The notes under the pieces are model-generated. The model did not search any database. It had not been told where the DNA came from and saw only the letters and a list, made by a program, of their open reading frames with translations. Source: Deinococcales bacterium (GTDB lineage Bacteria; Deinococcota; Deinococci; Deinococcales; JAAFIG01). From it: a stretch of 64,000 nucleotides of DNA. A program made the translations under genes and the position numbers. Shown in pieces: positions 50,007 through 56,931 of the stretch. Location: the NCBI GenBank assembly GCA_013298595.1, contig JAAFIG010000027.1, positions 1 through 64,000 on the forward strand, written 5' to 3'. Numbering within the stretch: the stretch's first letter is position 1; every line of letters starts with the position of its first letter.

Positions 50007-50139
50007 TGGGGGCGTGGATTGGAGTCGAACCAATAAGAACCGATAACCCTATTTACAACGGCTCAGAAAGACTCGAGCAAGGGAACGAAAGAGGGAGAAA
50101 CCCACAAGTGTTCAAAGAACATCGTGGGAATTCCACGCC
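50007..50139 (-). ncRNA. Y-RNA/tRNA hybrid A: tRNA acceptor and T-arm with Ro60-binding-like hairpin, no recognisable D-arm
   Basis: GGCGTGG...CTTGCTC GAGTCTTTCT GAGCCG...AGGGTTATC...ATTGGTTCGACTCCAAT CCACGCC C CCA, immediately 5' of rsr. Confidence 0.6.
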
Positions 50140-50171
50140 CATAAAAAACAACTCGAATGCCAAAATACTGC

Positions 50172-50319
50172 TGGTTGGACAAGTAGGATTTGAACCTACA
50201 AGGGTTGCCCCAGACCTCCTTAAATAACCTTTCACCTTCGGCTCGAAACGAGCAAGGTGTGGCAAAAGGAAAGCTGCACAAGGCAGCTAAGTCCGCGTTT
50301 ACCGTTTCGCCATTGCCCA
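50172..50319 (-). tRNA. tRNA-Leu(UAA), class II, interrupted in the anticodon arm by a Ro60-binding-like hairpin of about 64 nt
   Basis: TGGGCAA TG GCG..CGC G GACTT [AGCTGCC...CACCTTGCTCG TTT CGAGCCGAAGGTGAAAGGTTA] TTTAAGG AGGTC T GGGGCAACCCTT GTAGGTTCAAATCCTAC TTGTCCA A CCA. Confidence 0.65.
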
Positions 50320-50329
50320 ATAAGAAAAG

Positions 50330-50459
50330 TGGTGGAGCGGGTGAGACTCGAACTCACGACCCGGCGATTAGAAGTCGATAACCCTCACGCTTCGGTTCTA
50401 CAAAAGAACAAGGTATGCAGAGGATGTTTTTCCTGCTCTGCCATCTGAGCTACCGCCCC
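50330..50459 (-). tRNA. tRNA-Arg(UCU) interrupted in the anticodon stem by a 54-nt Ro60-binding-like insert
   Basis: GGGGCGG TA GCTC..GAGC A GG [AAAAACATCCTCTGCATACCTTGTTCTTTTGTAGAACCGAAGCGTGAGGGTTAT] CGA CTTCTAA TCGCC ... GTGAGTTCGAGTCTCAC CCGCTCC A CCA; removing the insert gives a perfect 76-nt tRNA. Confidence 0.78.
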
Positions 50460-50463
50460 ACAT

Positions 50464-50549
50464 TGGAGGAATCGGAGGGATTTGAACCCTCGAGACTTCA
50501 GTCTTCCTTCTTAGCAGGAAGGTGCAATAAGCCACTCTGCCACGATTCC
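50464..50549 (-). tRNA. tRNA-Ser(GCU)
   Basis: GGAATCG...CTTCCTGCTAAGAAGG...GAGGGTTCAAATCCCTC CGATTCC T CCA. Confidence 0.88.
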
Positions 50550-50574
50550 ATACCGCTCGAGTTACCTCGAGCTT

Positions 50575-50652
50575 TGGCGAGTCTGACAGGATTTGAACCT
50601 GCATCAGTACGTTTTGGAGACGTATTCCCTTAGCCAGTCGGGATTCAGACTC
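50575..50652 (-). tRNA. tRNA-Trp(CCA)
   Basis: GAGTCTG...TACGT CTCCAAA ACGTA...GCAGGTTCAAATCCTGT CAGACTC G CCA. Confidence 0.88.
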
Positions 50653-50656
50653 ATGC

Positions 50657-51283
50657 TTAATCAGTTGTGGAAGCGGCTATGACAACAATCAAATTTTGTG
50701 TTGGGTGCTTTACAGTCCAAAGAAAACTCCCCCACCATTCATTGCCAGCATTAAAATATGTAGACCAATCATTACTCCATTCAAAAATTTCTAACTCCGA
50801 TTGCAAACCACCAAAAGCAGCTTGGTTGATCTGCTCAAAAAGTACATTCGCTTCCTCGTGATTGATGCGAATACCATAAGGCGTGTCCGAAAAAGCTTCA
50901 GCATAGCCTTGGTTTGAACCAGATTTGCTTCTCGAGTTATCCGCACTGATTTTCCAAACAGAAACAATTTTTTGTTTCTGCCAATCATAGGCACGCCCCA
51001 AGAAACGTTGCACAGAAATTTGTTCACCTCGAGCTTTATCTGGTTCGGTAATAATCTGAAAATAATCTTCACGTTTTTGATTGCGTTCTTGCAAAAGTGG
51101 TAAAAAATAATCATCGAGTTGTTGTGCTAAAACACCAAGAGCAAAAATTGCCGCTTGCTTATGAACTGCTGCGTTGACTGCTACCGATTCACAATCTATC
51201 AAAACATAATCCATAACAATATGCGCTGCTTTAGCTTTCTCGAGAAGTGTTTTTAGTGTGGGATTTGGAATTATTTCTTTCAT
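50657..51283 (-). CDS. hypothetical protein inside the tRNA array
   Basis: Intact 208-aa ORF between tRNA-Trp and tRNA-Ser; no family recognised. Confidence 0.7.
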   Translation of the reverse strand: MKEIIPNPTLKTLLEKAKAAHIVMDYVLIDCESVAVNAAVHKQAAIFALGVLAQQLDDYFLPLLQERNQKREDYFQIITEPDKARGEQISVQRFLGRAYDWQKQKIVSVWKISADNSRSKSGSNQGYAEAFSDTPYGIRINHEEANVLFEQINQAAFGGLQSELEIFEWSNDWSTYFNAGNEWWGSFLWTVKHPTQNLIVVIAASTTD

Positions 51284-51302
51284 ACCACAGAGTATAAGTT
51301 TT

Positions 51303-51389
51303 TGGAGGAAAGCAAGGGAATCGAACCCTTGAAGCTATTTACACCCAGCCGTTTTCAAGACGGTGTCCTCGACCTACCGGACGCTTTCC
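51303..51389 (-). tRNA. tRNA-Ser(UGA)
   Basis: GGAAAGC...CCGT CTTGAAA ACGG...AAGGGTTCGATTCCCTT GCTTTCC T CCA. Confidence 0.88.
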
Positions 51390-51394
51390 ATAAA

Positions 51395-51464
51395 AGACCT
51401 CGCTCGGAATTGAACCGAGACTCTTTGGTTTGCAGCCAAAGCCCATGCCGTCTGGCTCGAGATC
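51395..51464 (-). tRNA. tRNA-Cys(GCA), CCA not encoded
   Basis: GATCTCG...TTTGG CTGCAAA CCAAA...CTCGGTTCAATTCCGAG CGAGGTC T. Confidence 0.78.
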
Positions 51465-51469
51465 ATGAT

Positions 51470-51681
51470 TGGTGGAAGAGACGGGACTCGAACCCGCATA
51501 ACTAAGACTATCGGTATAGGAAAACTCGCTTCCTGCGGCAAGTTACAAACCCACTCGAGACTTGTCATCTCGAGTCGCCAGCCAGTGCATCCGCAACCCC
51601 CGATGGCTTTTGACCTGTCTTAGAACAATTAAGTTACCGTATTCAACGTTTTCGGTGCGCTCCCGTTTGCGCTACTCCCCC
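51470..51681 (-). tRNA. tRNA-like gene with about 136 extra nt; anticodon unassigned
   Basis: GGGGGAG TA GCGC..GCGC at the 5' end pairs with CTCTTCC A CCA after T-arm GCGGGTTCGAGTCCCGT; perfect internal helices CTAAGAC/GTCTTAG and ACTCGAGA/TCTCGAGT. Confidence 0.5.
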
Positions 51682-51692
51682 AATAATTTTAA

Positions 51693-51770
51693 TGGTGTTC
51701 CTTCAGGGACTCGAACCCAGACTTGTCAGTGTTTTAAGCACTGTGCCTCTACCAATTGGGCTAAAGAAAC
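51693..51770 (-). tRNA. tRNA with UAA (Leu) anticodon but short class-I variable loop
   Basis: GTTTCTT...CAGTG CTTAAAA CACTG ACAAGT ...TTCGAGT... AAGGAAC A CCA. Confidence 0.72.
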
Positions 51771-51771
51771 A

Positions 51772-51847
51772 TGGTGCGTCTGGTGGGAGTCGAACCCACA
51801 GATTCTCGGTTTTGAGGCGAGTGAGTGTGCCATTCCTCTACAAACGC
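51772..51847 (-). tRNA. tRNA with CAA (Leu) anticodon, class-I body
   Basis: GCGTTTG...CTCGC CTCAAAA CCGAG AATCT GTGGGTTCGACTCCCAC CAGACGC A CCA. Confidence 0.72.
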
Positions 51848-51877
51848 ATGATTCTCGAGATTATCCCCAAGAATTTT

Positions 51878-51953
51878 TGGTACGCCGAGCGGGACTCGAA
51901 CCCGCAAGCTCCTCGTTCTAAGCGAGGTGAGTTTACCATTTCTCTATCAGCGC
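51878..51953 (-). tRNA. tRNA with UAG (Leu) anticodon, class-I body
   Basis: GCGCTGA...CCTCG CTTAGAA CGAGG AGCTT GCGGGTTCGAGTCCCGC TCGGCGT A CCA. Confidence 0.75.
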
Positions 51954-51978
51954 ACAGACCCTCGAGACTCGAGGGTTA

Positions 51979-52055
51979 TGGTGTCCATGACGGGATTTGA
52001 ACCCGTAAATTCCTGTCGCTCAAACAGGTGACTTTACCAATTTGTCTACACGGAT
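51979..52055 (-). tRNA. tRNA with GAG (Leu) anticodon, class-I body
   Basis: ATCCGTG...CCTGT TTGAGCG ACAGG AATTT ACGGGTTCAAATCCCGT CATGGAC A CCA. Confidence 0.7.
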
Positions 52056-52067
52056 GTACTAAGAATT

Positions 52068-52192
52068 TTGGTGCATGAACCCATATGATTCATTGGTGCA
52101 TGAACCCATATGATTCATTGGTGCATGAACCCATATGATTCATTGGTGCATGAACCCATATGATTCATTGGTGCATGAACCCATATGATTCA
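52068..52192 (-). repeat. five tandem copies of a 25-bp unit abutting the 3' end of tRNA-Gly(GCC)
   Basis: (ttggtgcatgaacccatatgattca)x5 then ttggtgca; minus-strand unit ATGAATCATATGGGTTCATGCACCA ends with the tRNA's own TGCACCA. Confidence 0.97.
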
Positions 52193-52193
52193 T

Positions 52194-52269
52194 TGGTGCA
52201 GATTGGGAGAATCGAACTCCCGTTATTTGCATGGCAAGCAAGCGTCTTCAACCACTAGACGAAATCTGC
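52194..52269 (-). tRNA. tRNA-Gly(GCC)
   Basis: GCAGATT...TTGC TTGCCAT GCAA...GGGAGTTCGATTCTCCC AATCTGC A CCA. Confidence 0.85.
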
Positions 52270-52368
52270 AAAAAGCCTCTGCTTGTGTGGCAATTCTTTT
52301 AGCGGTGAATTGCCCTTTGCTCCCGCTCGAGCAAAGAAAAACAGAGGGGTTGCCCGCGTGTGCGGGTG

Positions 52369-52441
52369 TGGAGCAGAAGGACAGGATTCGCACCTGCATT
52401 GTCACCCGGAAAGGCGCATCTTGCTGTTAGAAGACTTCTGC
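52369..52441 (-). tRNA. divergent tRNA, anticodon uncertain (UUC/UCC-like); T-loop TGCGAAT, no G18G19
   Basis: GCAGAAG TCTT CTAACAGC AAGA ...GCGCCTTTCCGGGTG... GCAGG TGCGAAT CCTGT ..CTTCTGC T CCA. Confidence 0.6.
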
Positions 52442-52444
52442 ATT

Positions 52445-52520
52445 TGGAGCAGTCAGTGGGAATTGCACCCACATTCTCTGGTTGGAAGCCAGTAATCCTG
52501 AGCTGTTGGACGATGACTGC
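52445..52520 (-). tRNA. tRNA-Gly(UCC), non-canonical T-loop TGCAATT
   Basis: GCAGTCA...TCC AACAGCTCA GGA...CTGG CTTCCAA CCAG...GTGGG TGCAATT CCCAC TGACTGC T CCA. Confidence 0.75.
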
Positions 52521-52521
52521 A

Positions 52522-52599
52522 TGGAGGTTTTGACAGGAATTGAACCTGCGTTTTCTTGCTTACAAGGCAAGCGCTCGAGCCAACGTGAGCTTCAAAACC
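52522..52599 (-). tRNA. tRNA-Thr(UGU)
   Basis: GGTTTTG...CTTGC CTTGTAA GCAAG...GCAGGTTCAATTCCTGT CAAAACC T CCA. Confidence 0.87.
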
Positions 52600-52602
52600 A
52601 AA

Positions 52603-52678
52603 TGGTGGGTTCTTTCGGATTTGAACCGAAACCTCGACGATTAAAAGTCGTCTGCTCTGCCAGTTGAGCTAAAAACCC
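52603..52678 (-). tRNA. tRNA-Lys(UUU)
   Basis: GGGTTTT TAGCTC..GAGC AGACGA CTTTTAA TCGTC...TTCGGTTCAAATCCGAA AGAACCC A CCA. Confidence 0.9.
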
Positions 52679-52679
52679 G

Positions 52680-52754
52680 TGGTGATCTCGAGGGGAGTCG
52701 AACCCCTATTTCCGCATAGAGAGTGCAGCGTCGTAACCATTGGACGACAAGACC
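52680..52754 (-). tRNA. tRNA-Glu(CUC)
   Basis: GGTCTTG...GCA CTCTCTA TGC...AGGGGTTCGACTCCCCT CGAGATC A CCA. Confidence 0.83.
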
Positions 52755-52781
52755 ATGAGGCGCAAAACGCGCCAAGGATTT

Positions 52782-52856
52782 TGGTGATCTCGAGGAGAAT
52801 TGAACTCCTGTTTGTCGGGTGAAAACCGCGTGTCCTAGCCATTAGACGACGAGACC
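52782..52856 (-). tRNA. tRNA-Glu(UUC)
   Basis: GGTCTCG...GCGG TTTTCAC CCG...AGGAGTTCAATTCTCCT CGAGATC A CCA. Confidence 0.85.
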
Positions 52857-52859
52857 ATG

Positions 52860-52934
52860 TGGAAGGGAAACTGAGACTCGAACTCAGATTTGGCAGCTTC
52901 AAAGGCTGTTGCGTTACCAATTACGCTATTTCCC
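52860..52934 (-). tRNA. tRNA-Gln(UUG)
   Basis: GGGAAAT...CAGC CTTTGAA GCTG...CTGAGTTCGAGTCTCAG TTTCCCT T CCA. Confidence 0.85.
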
Positions 52935-52940
52935 TAGGGT

Positions 52941-53030
52941 AAAGACTCGAGCAAGTTTTGTATCACATGCAGGGTTTGAACCTGCTCTCCCTAAGGATTA
53001 ACCGATAACTGTGGTACTTCGGCTCGAGTT
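52941..53030 (-). ncRNA. candidate Y RNA D (Ro60-binding stem plus T-arm-like module)
   Basis: 5' ACTCGAGC-C-GAAGTACCACAGTTATC ... GCAGGTTCAAACCCTGC ATGTGATACAAAACTT GCTCGAGT CTTT; 8-bp terminal helix, GTACCAC/GTGATAC helix. Confidence 0.75.
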
Positions 53031-53034
53031 AATT

Positions 53035-53111
53035 TGGTCGGTGGGACTCGGAGTTGAACCGAAACCTCTTGTTCTTCAGACAAGCGTGCAGACCCGCTAC
53101 ACCATCCCCCG
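53035..53111 (-). tRNA. tRNA-Phe(GAA) with bulged A in acceptor stem
   Basis: CGGGGGA...CTTGT CTGAAGA ACAAG...TTCGGTTCAACTCCGAG TCCCaCCG A CCA. Confidence 0.72.
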
Positions 53112-53140
53112 ATTACGAACCCGCTTCCGTCGGGGCGTAT

Positions 53141-53213
53141 TGGGTGCGGTGGTGGGAGTTGAACCCACCAGCCGAGCTTATGAGACTCGGCGCATCACCG
53201 GACGCACACCGCA
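53141..53213 (-). tRNA. tRNA(CAU), Met or lysidine-Ile type
   Basis: TGCGGTG...CGAGT CTCATAA GCTCG...GTGGGTTCAACTCCCAC CACCGCA C CCA. Confidence 0.78.
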
Positions 53214-53266
53214 GCATATATCATTCAGTAAATTACAAAATATCGAAAGAGTAGTATATTATTTTT

Positions 53267-53740
53267 ATGAATAGCATAATGATTCGACCTGCCCAAGAAT
53301 CTGATCTCGAAATTCTTTTTCAATATCAACTTGATGACGATTACAACAAGATGGCAGCGTTTGGTACAGCAAATCCAAAAGATAAAACAGCTTTTTTGGC
53401 GCACAGAAGAAAGATTATTGCAGACCCTGATTGCTTGTTCTATACTGTTGAATGGAATCAAACACCAATCGGAACAGTTGGGAGTTTTTGGTTCGATGGT
53501 GAGCGCGACCTTGGTTACGGCATTGCTAAAGAGTATTGGCGTAAAGGACTGACGACACAAGCTGTACAAGCGTTTTTACCCATTGAACCAATCAGACCCT
53601 TGGGCGCTCGGGTTGCTGTTCACAATGCTGCTTCAATTCGTATCCTCGAGAAATGCGGATTTCAGCGAATCGGTTCAGACAAAGGATTCTCTGACTTTTT
53701 GAACCGTGAAGTTGAAGAGCATATCTATTCGCTACGCTGA
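53267..53740 (+). CDS. GNAT acetyltransferase
   Basis: MIRPAQESDLEILFQYQ ... DLGYGIAKEYWRKGLTTQAVQAFL ... RVAVHNAASIRILEKCGFQRIG. Confidence 0.9.
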   Translation: MNSIMIRPAQESDLEILFQYQLDDDYNKMAAFGTANPKDKTAFLAHRRKIIADPDCLFYTVEWNQTPIGTVGSFWFDGERDLGYGIAKEYWRKGLTTQAVQAFLPIEPIRPLGARVAVHNAASIRILEKCGFQRIGSDKGFSDFLNREVEEHIYSLR

Positions 53741-53752
53741 AAAGATTAACTC

Positions 53753-53826
53753 TGGTCGAAGATGATGGAATCGAACCATCGTTGCCTGCATATCAGACAG
53801 GTGTCCTACCATTGGACGAATCTTCG
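53753..53826 (-). tRNA. tRNA-Ile(GAU)
   Basis: CGAAGAT...CCTGT CTGATAT GCAGG...GATGGTTCGATTCCATC ATCTTCG A CCA. Confidence 0.83.
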
Positions 53827-53884
53827 TTTCTCCTCGAGCGTGTTGGAGGTAATACTCGAGGGGTGCATCCCAAAAAGGATGCTC

Positions 53885-53960
53885 TGGTCGGCGCGGTAGG
53901 GGTCGAACCTACGACAACTGCTTTGTAAGAACAGCACTGCTACCACTGAGTTACGCGCCG
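53885..53960 (-). tRNA. tRNA-Val(UAC)
   Basis: CGGCGCG...CTGTT CTTACAA AGCAG...GTAGGTTCGACCCCTAC CGCGCCG A CCA. Confidence 0.87.
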
Positions 53961-53992
53961 TGGAACTCGAGAATAATGTGGTTCTCGAGATA

Positions 53993-54069
53993 TGGTGGAA
54001 AAGGTCGGAGTCGAACCGACAACCATCTCTGTGCAAAAGAGGCGCTCTCCCAAATTGAGCTACTTCCCC
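53993..54069 (-). tRNA. tRNA-Ala(UGC)
   Basis: GGGGAAG TAGCTC...CTCT TTTGCAC AGAG...GTCGGTTCGACTCCGAC CTTTTCC A CCA. Confidence 0.88.
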
Positions 54070-54140
54070 ATGTGTGAACTGGTACGACTTCCCCGTATTT
54101 GATTCAGGCTTGAGTGCAGTCATAAACCACACTCAAGCGT

Positions 54141-54216
54141 TGGTCGAGCGTGCAAGAATTGAACTTGCCTATGTCCTGTTTCCAAAACAGGAGACCCTCC
54201 TTGAGTCCGACGCTCG
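54141..54216 (-). tRNA. tRNA-Pro(UGG)
   Basis: CGAGCGT...CCTGT TTTGGAA ACAGG...GCAAGTTCAATTCTTGC ACGCTCG A CCA. Confidence 0.86.
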
Positions 54217-54225
54217 AGAATGAAG

Positions 54226-54300
54226 TGAAACTACAAAGGATTTGAACCTTTACTCCGTCGTTTAAGAGACGACTGCTTTACCTTTAAGCTACGATTCCGT
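54226..54300 (-). tRNA. degenerate tRNA-Lys(CUU)-like, poor acceptor stem, no CCA
   Basis: GGAATCG TAGCTTAAAGGTAAAGC A GTCGT CTCTTAA ACGAC...AAAGGTTCAAATCCTTT; acceptor 3' strand GTAGTTT does not pair well. Confidence 0.5.
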
Positions 54301-54304
54301 TAAG

Positions 54305-54377
54305 AGACCTCGGCAAGATTCGCACTTGCATCCTCGAGCTTCGCACGCTCGCGCTCGTCTATTTGAGCTTCGGGGTC
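54305..54377 (-). tRNA. tRNA with GCG (Arg) anticodon, T-loop TGCGAAT, no CCA
   Basis: GACCCCG AA GCTC AAATAGAC GAGC ..CGAGC GTGCGAA GCTCG..GCAAG TGCGAAT CTTGC CGAGGTC T. Confidence 0.6.
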
Positions 54378-54380
54378 ATG

Positions 54381-54430
54381 TGGTGAACTGGTCATGTCAC
54401 AGGTTTGGTGAACTGGTCATGTCACAGGTT
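54381..54430 (-). repeat. two tandem copies of a 25-bp unit abutting the 3' end of tRNA-Arg(UCU)
   Basis: (tggtgaactggtcatgtcacaggtt)x2 followed by tggtgaac of the tRNA 3' end. Confidence 0.95.
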
Positions 54431-54507
54431 TGGTGAACCGAGCAGGACTCGAACCTGCGGCTTCCATGTTAGAAGCATGGCACTCTGTTCCGCTGAGTTA
54501 TCGGTTC
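54431..54507 (-). tRNA. tRNA-Arg(UCU), uninterrupted second copy
   Basis: GAACCGA TAACTC...CCATG CTTCTAA CATGG...GCAGGTTCGAGTCCTGC TCGGTTC A CCA. Confidence 0.88.
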
Positions 54508-54546
54508 ATGATGCCCATGTATCACTGGTTCATGTTGCCCATGTAT
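54503..54546 (-). repeat. 24-bp direct repeat at the 5' flank of tRNA-Arg(UCU)
   Basis: ggttcatgatgcccatgtat cact ggttcatgttgcccatgtat. Confidence 0.9.
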
Positions 54547-54550
54547 TTTT

Positions 54551-54637
54551 TGCCTCGAGCAAGTTGTGGTCTGGGGTTGCGGTTTCCCGCGTCAAAATTG
54601 GAAGTTTTGGATAACCCAGTACCTTCGGCTCGAGAGG
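54551..54637 (-). ncRNA. candidate Y RNA H
   Basis: 5' CTCGAGC-C-GAAGGTACTGGGTTATCC ... AACCCCAGACCACAACTT GCTCGAG GCAAAAAA. Confidence 0.72.
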
Positions 54638-54645
54638 AAATTTGG

Positions 54646-54721
54646 TGGTGAATCGGACAGGACTCGAACCTGCAACCGCTGCGTTCGAAGCGCAGAACTC
54701 TATCCGTTGAGCTACCGATTC
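54646..54721 (-). tRNA. tRNA-Arg(UCG)
   Basis: GAATCGG TAGCTC...CTGCG CTTCGAA CGCAG...GCAGGTTCGAGTCCTGT CCGATTC A CCA. Confidence 0.88.
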
Positions 54722-54725
54722 TTGA

Positions 54726-54787
54726 TTGCTCGAGCAAGTGATTATAGCACGGGTGTTTCAAGATAACCGTGGTACTTCGGCTCGAGT
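54726..54787 (-). ncRNA. candidate short Y RNA E
   Basis: 5' CTCGAGC-C-GAAGTACCACGGTTATCTTGAAACACCCGTGCTATAATCACTT GCTCGAG; CCACGG/CCGTG helix. Confidence 0.68.
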
Positions 54788-54788
54788 T

Positions 54789-55223
54789 TTATTCTTTTTT
54801 GCGCCGTGATTTTAATAGCATCTGAATGCGGTCAAACAATAACTTAAATCCATGCTCGAGTACCCATAAATAGGCAAATAAGCAAAGGACAATAAAGTAC
54901 ATCACTTGATGATTCTGTCCTGTAAAAAATACCCACCCGATTGCTGTACTTGCTCCTATGATTGTACATCTGGCTAAACCAGGACGTGTTTTTCTATGGC
55001 GATAAATCTCAAAAATGCTGATGCCTACAAATAAGGCAATATCCCATCGCCATAAGCTCGAGAAATACCATTGAATGGGTTGTGCGTAAAAAGCAATAGT
55101 GACAAAGCACAACACTGGGTAGAGCAGAATTTCCCAAGACTCGAGTGGTTCGTTGGTCACGAGCTTAGCATACTGTTCGATTCTGGTTTTACATGAGTTA
55201 CTGTGAGCAACTGAGCGCTGCAT
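54789..55223 (-). CDS. hypothetical membrane protein (annotated ATG lies inside Y RNA F, so the real start may be further 3')
   Basis: Hydrophobic ORF with several TM segments. Confidence 0.55.
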   Translation of the reverse strand: MQRSVAHSNSCKTRIEQYAKLVTNEPLESWEILLYPVLCFVTIAFYAQPIQWYFSSLWRWDIALFVGISIFEIYRHRKTRPGLARCTIIGASTAIGWVFFTGQNHQVMYFIVLCLFAYLWVLEHGFKLLFDRIQMLLKSRRKKE

Positions 55224-55264
55224 GGGATATTTTGAAGATAACCATGCAGCATCGGCTCAAAGTA
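55201..55264 (-). ncRNA. candidate short Y RNA F
   Basis: 5' TGAGC-C-GATGCTGCATGGTTATCTTCAAAATATCCCATGCAGCGCTCAGTT GCTCA; 9-bp GCTGCATGG/CCATGCAGC helix. Confidence 0.68.
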
Positions 55265-55273
55265 GTTCGGTAG

Positions 55274-55323
55274 ACAAGTTTCCGCATTGGTACTGCGAAC
55301 AAGTTTCCGCATTGGTACTGCGA
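55274..55323 (-). repeat. two tandem copies of a 25-bp unit at the 3' end of Y RNA G
   Basis: (acaagtttccgcattggtactgcga)x2 plus a partial third; minus-strand unit contains ACTTGTTCGCAG and TACCA. Confidence 0.95.
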
Positions 55324-55390
55324 ACAAGTGATTTCTCGAGGGAATTCAATTCCATTAAAAGGGGATAACCCTCGAGATTCGGCTCACAGT
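55318..55390 (-). ncRNA. candidate short Y RNA G
   Basis: 5' TGTGAGC-C-GAATCTCGAGGGTTATCCCC...CCCTCGAGAAATCACTT GTTCGCA; 9-bp TCTCGAGGG/CCCTCGAGA helix and 7-bp terminal helix. Confidence 0.68.
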
Positions 55391-55432
55391 GAAAACCGTA
55401 GGGCGAATATTGTATTCGCCCAATAACACAAG

Positions 55433-56242
55433 TTAATCCAAGAACACCATGTTCTTCGCGGCTCGAGCTTGATGTTCGGTGTTCATGATGACCCGATGCC
55501 AACCACGTAAGTAAATCGTGGCATGGTCTGGGTGTGAAACTGCACCTCGAGCATATACTCCTGCACCGCGCATCATGGTTTTGAATTGAATGATGCTTGC
55601 ACTTAAGTTTCGTTTCAAAAGTTCTTGGTATTCTTGCTCAGTCAAACCAAGTGGGTATTTTGGAGACACATACACAAGTTCGCCACCTGTGCGGTACGCA
55701 TTCTCGAGCCAGTGCGGTTTGCCACGTCCTCGAGAAATGGGTTCGTTTTGCAGTACAAATTTCTCGGCAACAATTAAGCGTGGTTCGGGAATAAAAAACC
55801 ATTCGCCTTGGCGGATAAATGCAGTAGTGTGGCGGGCAAATCGTTCTTTGCTTTTCAAGGGCGCATCGCGTAACTCAGCAGGGCGCAGCGCATTCATGGC
55901 AGTGACAACATTGCTGACACTTTGTCCAGGAACAGCGCAAGTAAACCAGTGGCGCTCATCATGACCGCATAAGAATTTGTCTTTGTTACCTTCTTGACGT
56001 GCCATTAAAAGCAGGTGACGCAAGTTGCGTTGGATGTCCAGTACCTCGAGTTGAGGAATGTTCTGTTCGGGAATGCGGAGTTTGAAGTATTGTCCGTGCT
56101 TATCATTTGCAATGTCTATGCTGAATTCTGGGTGAAGCAGTCGCGGTGTGCCACGCCAAGAGTTTGACCATCGGCTGGGGAGGAATTCGATTTTGGCTCG
56201 AGCGCCGATTCGCTCAAATTTTTGGATCAAGTGTGTGTCCAT
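55433..56242 (-). CDS. conserved-looking hypothetical protein in the tRNA/Ro60 island
   Basis: Intact 269-aa soluble ORF with FLCGHDERHWFTCAVPGQSVSNVVTAMNALRP. Confidence 0.7.
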   Translation of the reverse strand: MDTHLIQKFERIGARAKIEFLPSRWSNSWRGTPRLLHPEFSIDIANDKHGQYFKLRIPEQNIPQLEVLDIQRNLRHLLLMARQEGNKDKFLCGHDERHWFTCAVPGQSVSNVVTAMNALRPAELRDAPLKSKERFARHTTAFIRQGEWFFIPEPRLIVAEKFVLQNEPISRGRGKPHWLENAYRTGGELVYVSPKYPLGLTEQEYQELLKRNLSASIIQFKTMMRGAGVYARGAVSHPDHATIYLRGWHRVIMNTEHQARAAKNMVFLD

Positions 56243-56278
56243 ACACTTCCTTTGTGTGAATGATTGGCTTATTGCCGT

Positions 56279-56344
56279 TTATTCGCGCTCAGGAAATTTT
56301 TTCTCGAGTCGTCGAATTGCCAGTGCTTGGGGTTTCCTTGTCAT
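56279..56344 (-). CDS. possible 21-aa basic peptide
   Basis: MTRKPQALAIRRLEKKFPERE with GGAG RBS just upstream, 5' of 55433-56242. Confidence 0.35.
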   Translation of the reverse strand: MTRKPQALAIRRLEKKFPERE

Positions 56345-56392
56345 GGTGTTTCTCCTTCTCGAGTGGGCTTAGGGTTGAGTTGCGGGTTTTTT

Positions 56393-56467
56393 TGGCGGTT
56401 CTAACGGGAATCGAACCCGTATTGCCTGAGAGACAGTCAGGTATCGTAGCCGTTGGAACATAGAACC
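56393..56467 (-). tRNA. tRNA-Asp(GUC)
   Basis: GGTTCTA...CCTGA CTGTCTC TCAGG...ACGGGTTCGATTCCCGT TAGAACC G CCA. Confidence 0.88.
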
Positions 56468-56470
56468 TTA

Positions 56471-56547
56471 TGGCTGACTCGGCAGGGATCGAACCTGCGA
56501 CTTTCTGATTAACAGTCAGATGCTGCTACCAACTGAGCTACGAGTCA
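56471..56547 (-). tRNA. tRNA-Asn(GUU)
   Basis: TGACTCG TAGCTC...CTGA CTGTTAA TCAG...GCAGGTTCGATCCCTGC CGAGTCA G CCA. Confidence 0.9.
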
Positions 56548-56553
56548 ATAAAA

Positions 56554-56636
56554 TGGGTGCGGAAGGATTTGAACCTCCATTGTCTTTTGGACGCTTGGGC
56601 TACAACCAAGTGCAATAGCCGTTCTGCCACACACCC
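56554..56636 (-). tRNA. tRNA-Tyr(GUA), class II, CCA not encoded
   Basis: GGGTGTG TGGCAGAACGG...CTTGG TTGTAGC CCAAG CGTCCAAAAGACAAT GGAGGTTCAAATCCTTC CGCACCC A. Confidence 0.83.
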
Positions 56637-56855
56637 TAATGGTACTTGCTCGAGGTGTACGCCTTCGAGCGTGTATCGCCTCTTGAATAATCGTGATGTA
56701 CCGTACAGCACATAAAATCACGTTTTCTCGAGGAGAAAATTTTGGCATTCGAGTTGTCAAGGTTCGCACTCGGGACAAGTTTTAGTTGCCGCAAGCAGTT
56801 TGGGTGTATTTTCTTGCTTCTCGAGGACACGAATTCTCGAGGTTGCTTACACCTT

Positions 56856-56931
56856 TGGGTTCATCGTCGGGAATCGCACCCGAGTTTCTAGGGTCACAAC
56901 CTAGCGTCCTCTCTGTTAGACGACAACGAAC
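56856..56931 (-). tRNA. tRNA-His(GUG), G-1:C73 present, T-loop TGCGATT
   Basis: G TTCGTTG TC GTC TAACAGAGA GGAC...CTAGG TTGTGAC CCTAG...TCGGG TGCGATT CCCGA CGATGAA C CCA. Confidence 0.82.

Follow-up and report, generated by a model that had tools for sequence, protein, structure and literature searches.

The tRNA array shown here raises the question of what is encoded by a gene that has the two ends of a tRNA, a long insert and no recognizable anticodon. This gene lies on the minus strand between tRNA-Leu(UAA) and tRNA-Cys, with its 5' end at position 51681 and its 3' end at position 51470 of the window (the whole 64,000-nt stretch analysed), in a bacterial genome of 4.58 Mb. A first-pass annotation, made from the letters alone, had described a folded insert enclosed by an intact tRNA frame, and this frame is indeed complete over 212 nt, with the acceptor stem GGGGGAG/CTCTTCC, D-arm, T-arm with T-loop, A73 and CCA. 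Neither ARAGORN nor Rfam called a gene at 51470-51681, Rfam also at permissive thresholds. From 5' to 3' the elements (Table 1) follow one another as acceptor strand, U8-A9, D-arm, hairpin P1, a linker, the 5' strand of helix P_A, a variable stretch (of 12 nt in the bacteria and about 63 nt in the phages), a core of about 95 nt that is closed by P_B and holds the hairpins P_C and P_D, the 3' strand of P_A and, after 3-4 nt, T-arm and acceptor; homologues measure about 212-262 nt. The lack of an anticodon arm (5-bp stem, 7-nt loop), already noticed in the first pass, extends to all six homologues, in which the loops of the post-D-arm hairpin comprise 8-14 nt and no split anticodon stem can form. 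The RNA has a complete tRNA frame of acceptor, D-arm and T-arm, in which a short hairpin with an A-loop takes the place of the anticodon arm, and a large conserved core domain that a covarying helix closes beside the T-arm.

Table 1. Positions in the window of the tRNA-framed RNA gene, its structural elements and its surroundings.
Feature	Positions	Strand	Remarks and basis
tRNA array containing the RNA	50464-56930	minus	27 ARAGORN tRNAs
269-aa array protein	55433-56242	minus	protein searches
tRNA-like genes beside the Ro60/TROVE gene	50330-50459, 50174-50320, 50010-50160	minus	tRNA frames
Whole tRNA-framed RNA gene	51470-51681	minus	212 nt; sequence and homologues
Acceptor stem, 5' strand GGGGGAG	51675-51681	minus	G3.U70 wobble; pairs with 51474-51480
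D-arm GCGC-AAACGGGA-GCGC	51657-51672	minus	sequence and six-sequence alignment
Hairpin P1 ACCG...CGGT, A-rich loop AAAAC	51636-51656	minus	at expected start of anticodon arm
Helix P_A, 5' strand CTAAGAC	51617-51623	minus	pairs with 51502-51508; double changes
Helix P_B, 5' strand ATCGG	51600-51604	minus	pairs with 51510-51514; double changes
Conserved core block 1, GGTT.CGG..G.ACTG..GC	51575-51599	minus	pattern common to phage homologues
Hairpin P_C CTCGAGA/TCTCGAG	51554-51574	minus	comparative alignment
Conserved core block 2, GGGTTT...TGC.GC	51535-51553	minus	conservation with phage homologues
Hairpin P_D AGGAA-GCGAGTT-TTCCT	51518-51534	minus	nearly invariant from phage to bacteria
Helix P_B, 3' strand CCGAT	51510-51514	minus	six-sequence alignment
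Helix P_A, 3' strand GTCTTAG	51502-51508	minus	T-stem begins four nt later
T-arm GCGGG-TTCGAGT-CCCGT	51481-51497	minus	sequence and alignment
Acceptor 3' strand CTCTTCC, discriminator A73, encoded CCA	51470-51480	minus	sequence

Folded singly, the sequence has an ordinary minimum free energy (z = -0.86), so that chance could be excluded through comparison alone. Searches within the same family yielded homologues with 85% and 81% identity in two Deinococcales MAGs (G001 and G003), and a search at the level of the order yielded one with 79% identity over 147 nt in the type strain Calidithermus chliarophilus DSM 9957 (G024), where the remainder of the gene is also present. All three sit inside tRNA arrays at equivalent places, adjoining Leu tRNAs, and the sequence likeness drops off at the borders of the RNA gene. 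Because the tRNA frame caused a full-length model (R1) to match ordinary tRNAs in most genomes, we adopted a model of the insert only (R2), which found exactly four bacterial members among 111 genomes of the phylum and the same four alone among 390 relatives in 285 genera. Of the 27 loci returned by a pattern scan of 84,980 genomes, only three, all from Deinococcota, were real according to the covariance model.

The alignment of the four bacterial sequences supports the insert as a folded structure: 98.7% of the pair cells form, compared to 91% in shuffles, and 13 pairs are changed on both sides, compared to 4.4 in shuffles. When the 3' partners were slid by 1-3 columns, the number of such double-change pairs fell to 1-2. 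The helices proposed in the first pass fared differently in this comparison. CTAAGAC/GTCTTAG proved to be real, with double changes in six of its seven pairs among the bacteria and in all seven once the phages are included, and the ACTCGAGA/TCTCGAGT helix is upheld by covariation, though it would have been weak on its own, as CTCGAG occurs 388 times in the window. The TTGCGG/CCGCAG pairing had to be given up, since relatives carry TTCCGG or TTTACGG as the 5' strand while CCGCAG is unchanged. Three helices had been overlooked, namely the covarying ATCGG/CCGAT, ACCG/CGGT after the D-arm and the hairpin AGGAA/TTCCT. A GCC/GGC pseudoknot is invariant in the four bacterial sequences and not evident in the phage form.

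Outside bacteria, R2 matched two phage contigs of 113 and 128 kb (E = 4.8e-5 and 1.5e-4), in both cases within tRNA arrays. The frame of the phage RNA is complete in different letters (acceptor ACTCTCG/CGAGAGT, D-arm GCTT/AAGC, T-arm CTCGG/CCGAG), and its D-arm is followed by the hairpin ACCGGT-AAAAACGA-ACCGGT. The phage RNA folds far better than its shuffles (z = -3.7), and its minimum-energy fold holds the acceptor, D, P1, P_A, P_B, P_D and T helices together with a P_C-like hairpin. No additional phage members came from a third model built with the phage forms included, whose weak match in L121 falls in a coding region. Exact-pattern scans of viral contigs (L046-L065, L110, L141-L148) gave mostly chance matches in coding sequence, the RNA was not found at the Ro60 loci of viruses, and blastn against phage and plasmid records returned tRNA-type matches at most.

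Eight helices are common to all six homologues, two of which are nearly identical, leaving about five independent sequences. With helix strings that were placed by hand, favouring pairing, 257 of 261 pair cells form (98.5%) and 26 of the 44 pairs are changed on both sides; helix order and spacing are conserved. A descriptor built on structure alone asks for a tRNA frame, a T-loop and a helix whose end lies 2-6 nt ahead of the T-stem. Over about 0.56 Mb, made up of the window, the bacterial arrays and the viral loci and read on both strands, it returned group members alone; it missed Calidithermus, which escapes it through a one-base deletion in P_A. The distance from the D-arm to P_A is kept at 31-34 nt even though the insert lengths of phages and bacteria differ. 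Sequence conservation is distributed unevenly: the core strands GGTT.CGG..G.ACTG, GGGTTT and TGC.GCAGGAA.CG.GTTTC vary little, the frame helices much; the core single strands and P_D are near-constant while the tRNA frame, P_A and P_B diverge in sequence. Judged from these sequences, a constant core within a changing frame looks as would be expected of a core that binds or catalyses. On this evidence we regard it as highly probable that the RNA exists with the structure described.

The 269-aa array protein belongs to no Pfam, PHROG or NCBIfam family, and its AlphaFold model is poor (mean pLDDT 45.5). It occurs in three of the 111 phylum genomes, all of them RNA-bearing, and is thus found in three of the four bacterial genomes with the RNA, being absent from G001. 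Its relatives extend from Deinococcota to large phages at 33-63% identity, with FLCGHDERHWFTCA invariant among the bacteria. Both phage contigs that carry the RNA are among the 21 viral contigs that encode it, and in 16 of these 21 at least one tRNA gene is present in the fetched stretch. Because the protein is shared with so many viral contigs, most of them with tRNA genes nearby, we consider a phage origin of the RNA quite likely.

Several other features of these arrays were noted. Between tRNA-Leu and tRNA-Gly of the window, positions 52070-52200 hold five tandem copies of a unit of about 25 nt (GGTGCATGAACCCATATGATTCATT). Phage arrays contain further tRNA frames with long inserts (L128:4328-4498, L130:6638-6928, L133:3157-3329 and L133:9562-9688) that have no obvious sequence likeness to the 212-nt RNA; tRNA-like genes of large size may be a frequent feature of arrays of this kind. 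Two neighbouring phage tRNAs at L128:16224-16373 were assigned the four-base anticodons cttg and cttt by ARAGORN, and suppressor or Pyl-type tRNAs (tta, cta) are predicted at L123:2826-2900, L129:15039-15113 and L131:2818-2892. The 388 copies of the palindrome CTCGAG are evenly spread over the 64 kb, where the average 6-bp palindrome has 17; its density is about 7.9 per kb in the fetched stretches of G001 and G003 and 3.6-4.8 per kb in Calidithermus. This abundance resembles that of the HIP1 repeat of cyanobacteria.

Rfam 15, searched with three homologues at a permissive threshold, matched no family. Among known RNAs with a tRNA-like part, the YrlA Y RNA also joins D, T and acceptor elements to another domain, and a Ro60 gene is located near the 212-nt RNA. 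The latter, however, differs from YrlA in its intact acceptor end with CCA, in having the putative effector domain inside the frame and in lacking a Ro60-binding motif. The absence of such a motif from 51470-51681, and hence a class distinct from the neighbouring Ro60-type tRNA-like genes, had been recognized in the first pass and holds: CCGAAG...GTTAT is missing there and present several times elsewhere in the array. The RNA also occurs in Calidithermus, whose genome gave no TROVE/Ro60 hit, and in the two phage contigs, possibly incomplete, that gave no TROVE hit. With the motif missing and Calidithermus devoid of Ro60, identity with a Ro60/Y RNA is ruled out. The Ro60-type gene at 50330-50459 shares the tRNA frame, G3.U70, A73, CCA and a post-D-arm hairpin with AAAAC loop; in contrast to the 212-nt RNA its insert carries CCGAAG...GGTTAT, and the two have no core sequence in common. 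This motif lies inside the tRNA frame of both 50330-50459 and 50174-50320, and the insert of 50010-50160 looks similar. Relatives of 50330-50459 were found in G001 and G003, the copy in the latter being 227 nt long. GCCGAAG...GTTAT modules are also present between tRNA genes on the minus strand, at 53005-53023, 54611-54629 and 54763-54781 (chance expectation 0.02 in the window).

We propose, with a probability of roughly 0.6 that blends existence, origin and function, that the RNA is a phage-derived noncoding tRNA mimic that matures like a tRNA and whose core acts as effector. The acceptor and T-arm of tRNAs are recognized by RNase P and by tRNA 3' processing, and as the frame keeps both elements, excision from the array transcript would be the simplest route of maturation. 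The RNA would be transcribed together with the tRNA array, be cut out by the tRNA-processing enzymes that recognize acceptor and T-arm, and accumulate as a stable tRNA mimic unable to decode. Its job would most likely lie in the phage-host conflict over tRNAs: the frame could engage tRNA-cleaving defence nucleases, or factors of modification, charging or decay, and the conserved core could be the effector that blocks or redirects tRNA-acting enzymes. Phage tRNAs have been proposed to counter tRNA-depleting defences (PMC10264068), and the units of mycobacterial arrays are considered putative anti-defence devices (PMC12803027). Such phage and bacterial array units resemble the present locus in their dense arrays of tRNA genes; in the literature covered, with most subscription journals and preprints outside it, we found no description of a non-decoding RNA of this form as an array member. 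The tRNA-like part of YrlA binds PNPase (PMC8394870) and has been suggested to inhibit an anticodon nuclease (PMC7790460). By analogy, a tRNA look-alike without anticodon would suit a decoy or a tether, and from context and analogy such a function towards tRNA-acting enzymes is a tentative suggestion, which we rate at somewhat less than even odds.

G3.U70 with A73 and CCA makes alanylation possible in the three related bacteria, as judged from sequence. This identity is found in three of the six homologues and is absent from Calidithermus and the phages, so alanylation would not be the common function. A wider version of our proposal, in which the RNA is a further natural tRNA mimic beside tmRNA and YrlA, phage-born, tRNA-processed, alanylatable in some hosts and with a core whose direct targets would be the ribosome or tRNA-cleaving defence enzymes, is rather unlikely.

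The alternative that survives best is a ribozyme, aptamer or self-assembling RNA, for which the tRNA frame would serve excision and end protection only. Core strands and a P_D hairpin that hardly vary between phages and bacteria would agree with this, as would the setting, since GOLLD and ROOL are likewise structured noncoding RNAs of phages or prophages near tRNA islands (PMC12286853). However, many GOLLD RNAs exceed 800 nt (PMC12286853), and compared to these much larger RNAs the present one has only about 212-262 nt, differs in sequence, carries its core inside a tRNA frame and is not matched by the Rfam models of GOLLD and ROOL. We consider this explanation unlikely. Slightly less credit goes to a ribosome-rescue RNA of the tmRNA type whose message part was lost or never existed, and which would enter stalled ribosomes charged with alanine. 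As in tmRNA (RF00023), acceptor and T-arm go together with a closing helix that stands where the anticodon stem would be, before the T-arm at the position of tmRNA helix 2; in the array G3.U70 with A73 and CCA is limited to tRNA-Ala, the 212-nt RNA and the Ro60-type tRNA-like gene, and several phage arrays with the 269-aa protein contain tmRNA genes. Against it, the tmRNA covariance model does not match at the locus, the D-stem is base-paired, recognized tmRNA pseudoknots are lacking, no tag reading frame or degradation tag is conserved or common among the homologues, the genome has a separate tmRNA of its own (124 bits), and G3.U70 is missing in Calidithermus and the phages. Identity with tmRNA itself is ruled out by the unmatched model, the D-stem, the lack of a common frame or tag and the separate genomic tmRNA.

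A tRNA gene split by a spliced intron, a case raised by the checks that the first pass proposed, is suggested by the two tRNA halves around a folded insert and yet refuted by comparison and very improbable: the flanks form no anticodon stem in any homologue, the group I and group II intron models of Rfam are unmatched, the closing helix P_A would either stay in the product or be destroyed, and the spacing from D-arm to P_A is constant while insert lengths differ. Decay of a tRNA into two halves, with unrelated sequence lying between them, was named at the outset as the refuting case and would account for the missing anticodon and the weak single-sequence folding score; it is excluded for practical purposes, since the four bacterial and two phage sequences are conserved and show double changes.

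The reading as a phage-derived tRNA mimic is the one we favour. Since tRNA mimics with added domains are already known, the RNA is rated as a structured tRNA-mimic noncoding RNA in a novel form and not as categorically new. A conserved member that does not decode implies that phage tRNA arrays carry more than decoding tRNAs, and tRNA finders and Rfam annotation overlook such genes. The RNA is a concrete candidate with which to examine effects on the ribosome or on defences that target tRNAs, and as it is carried by Calidithermus chliarophilus DSM 9957, a type strain in culture, expression and deletion are directly accessible.
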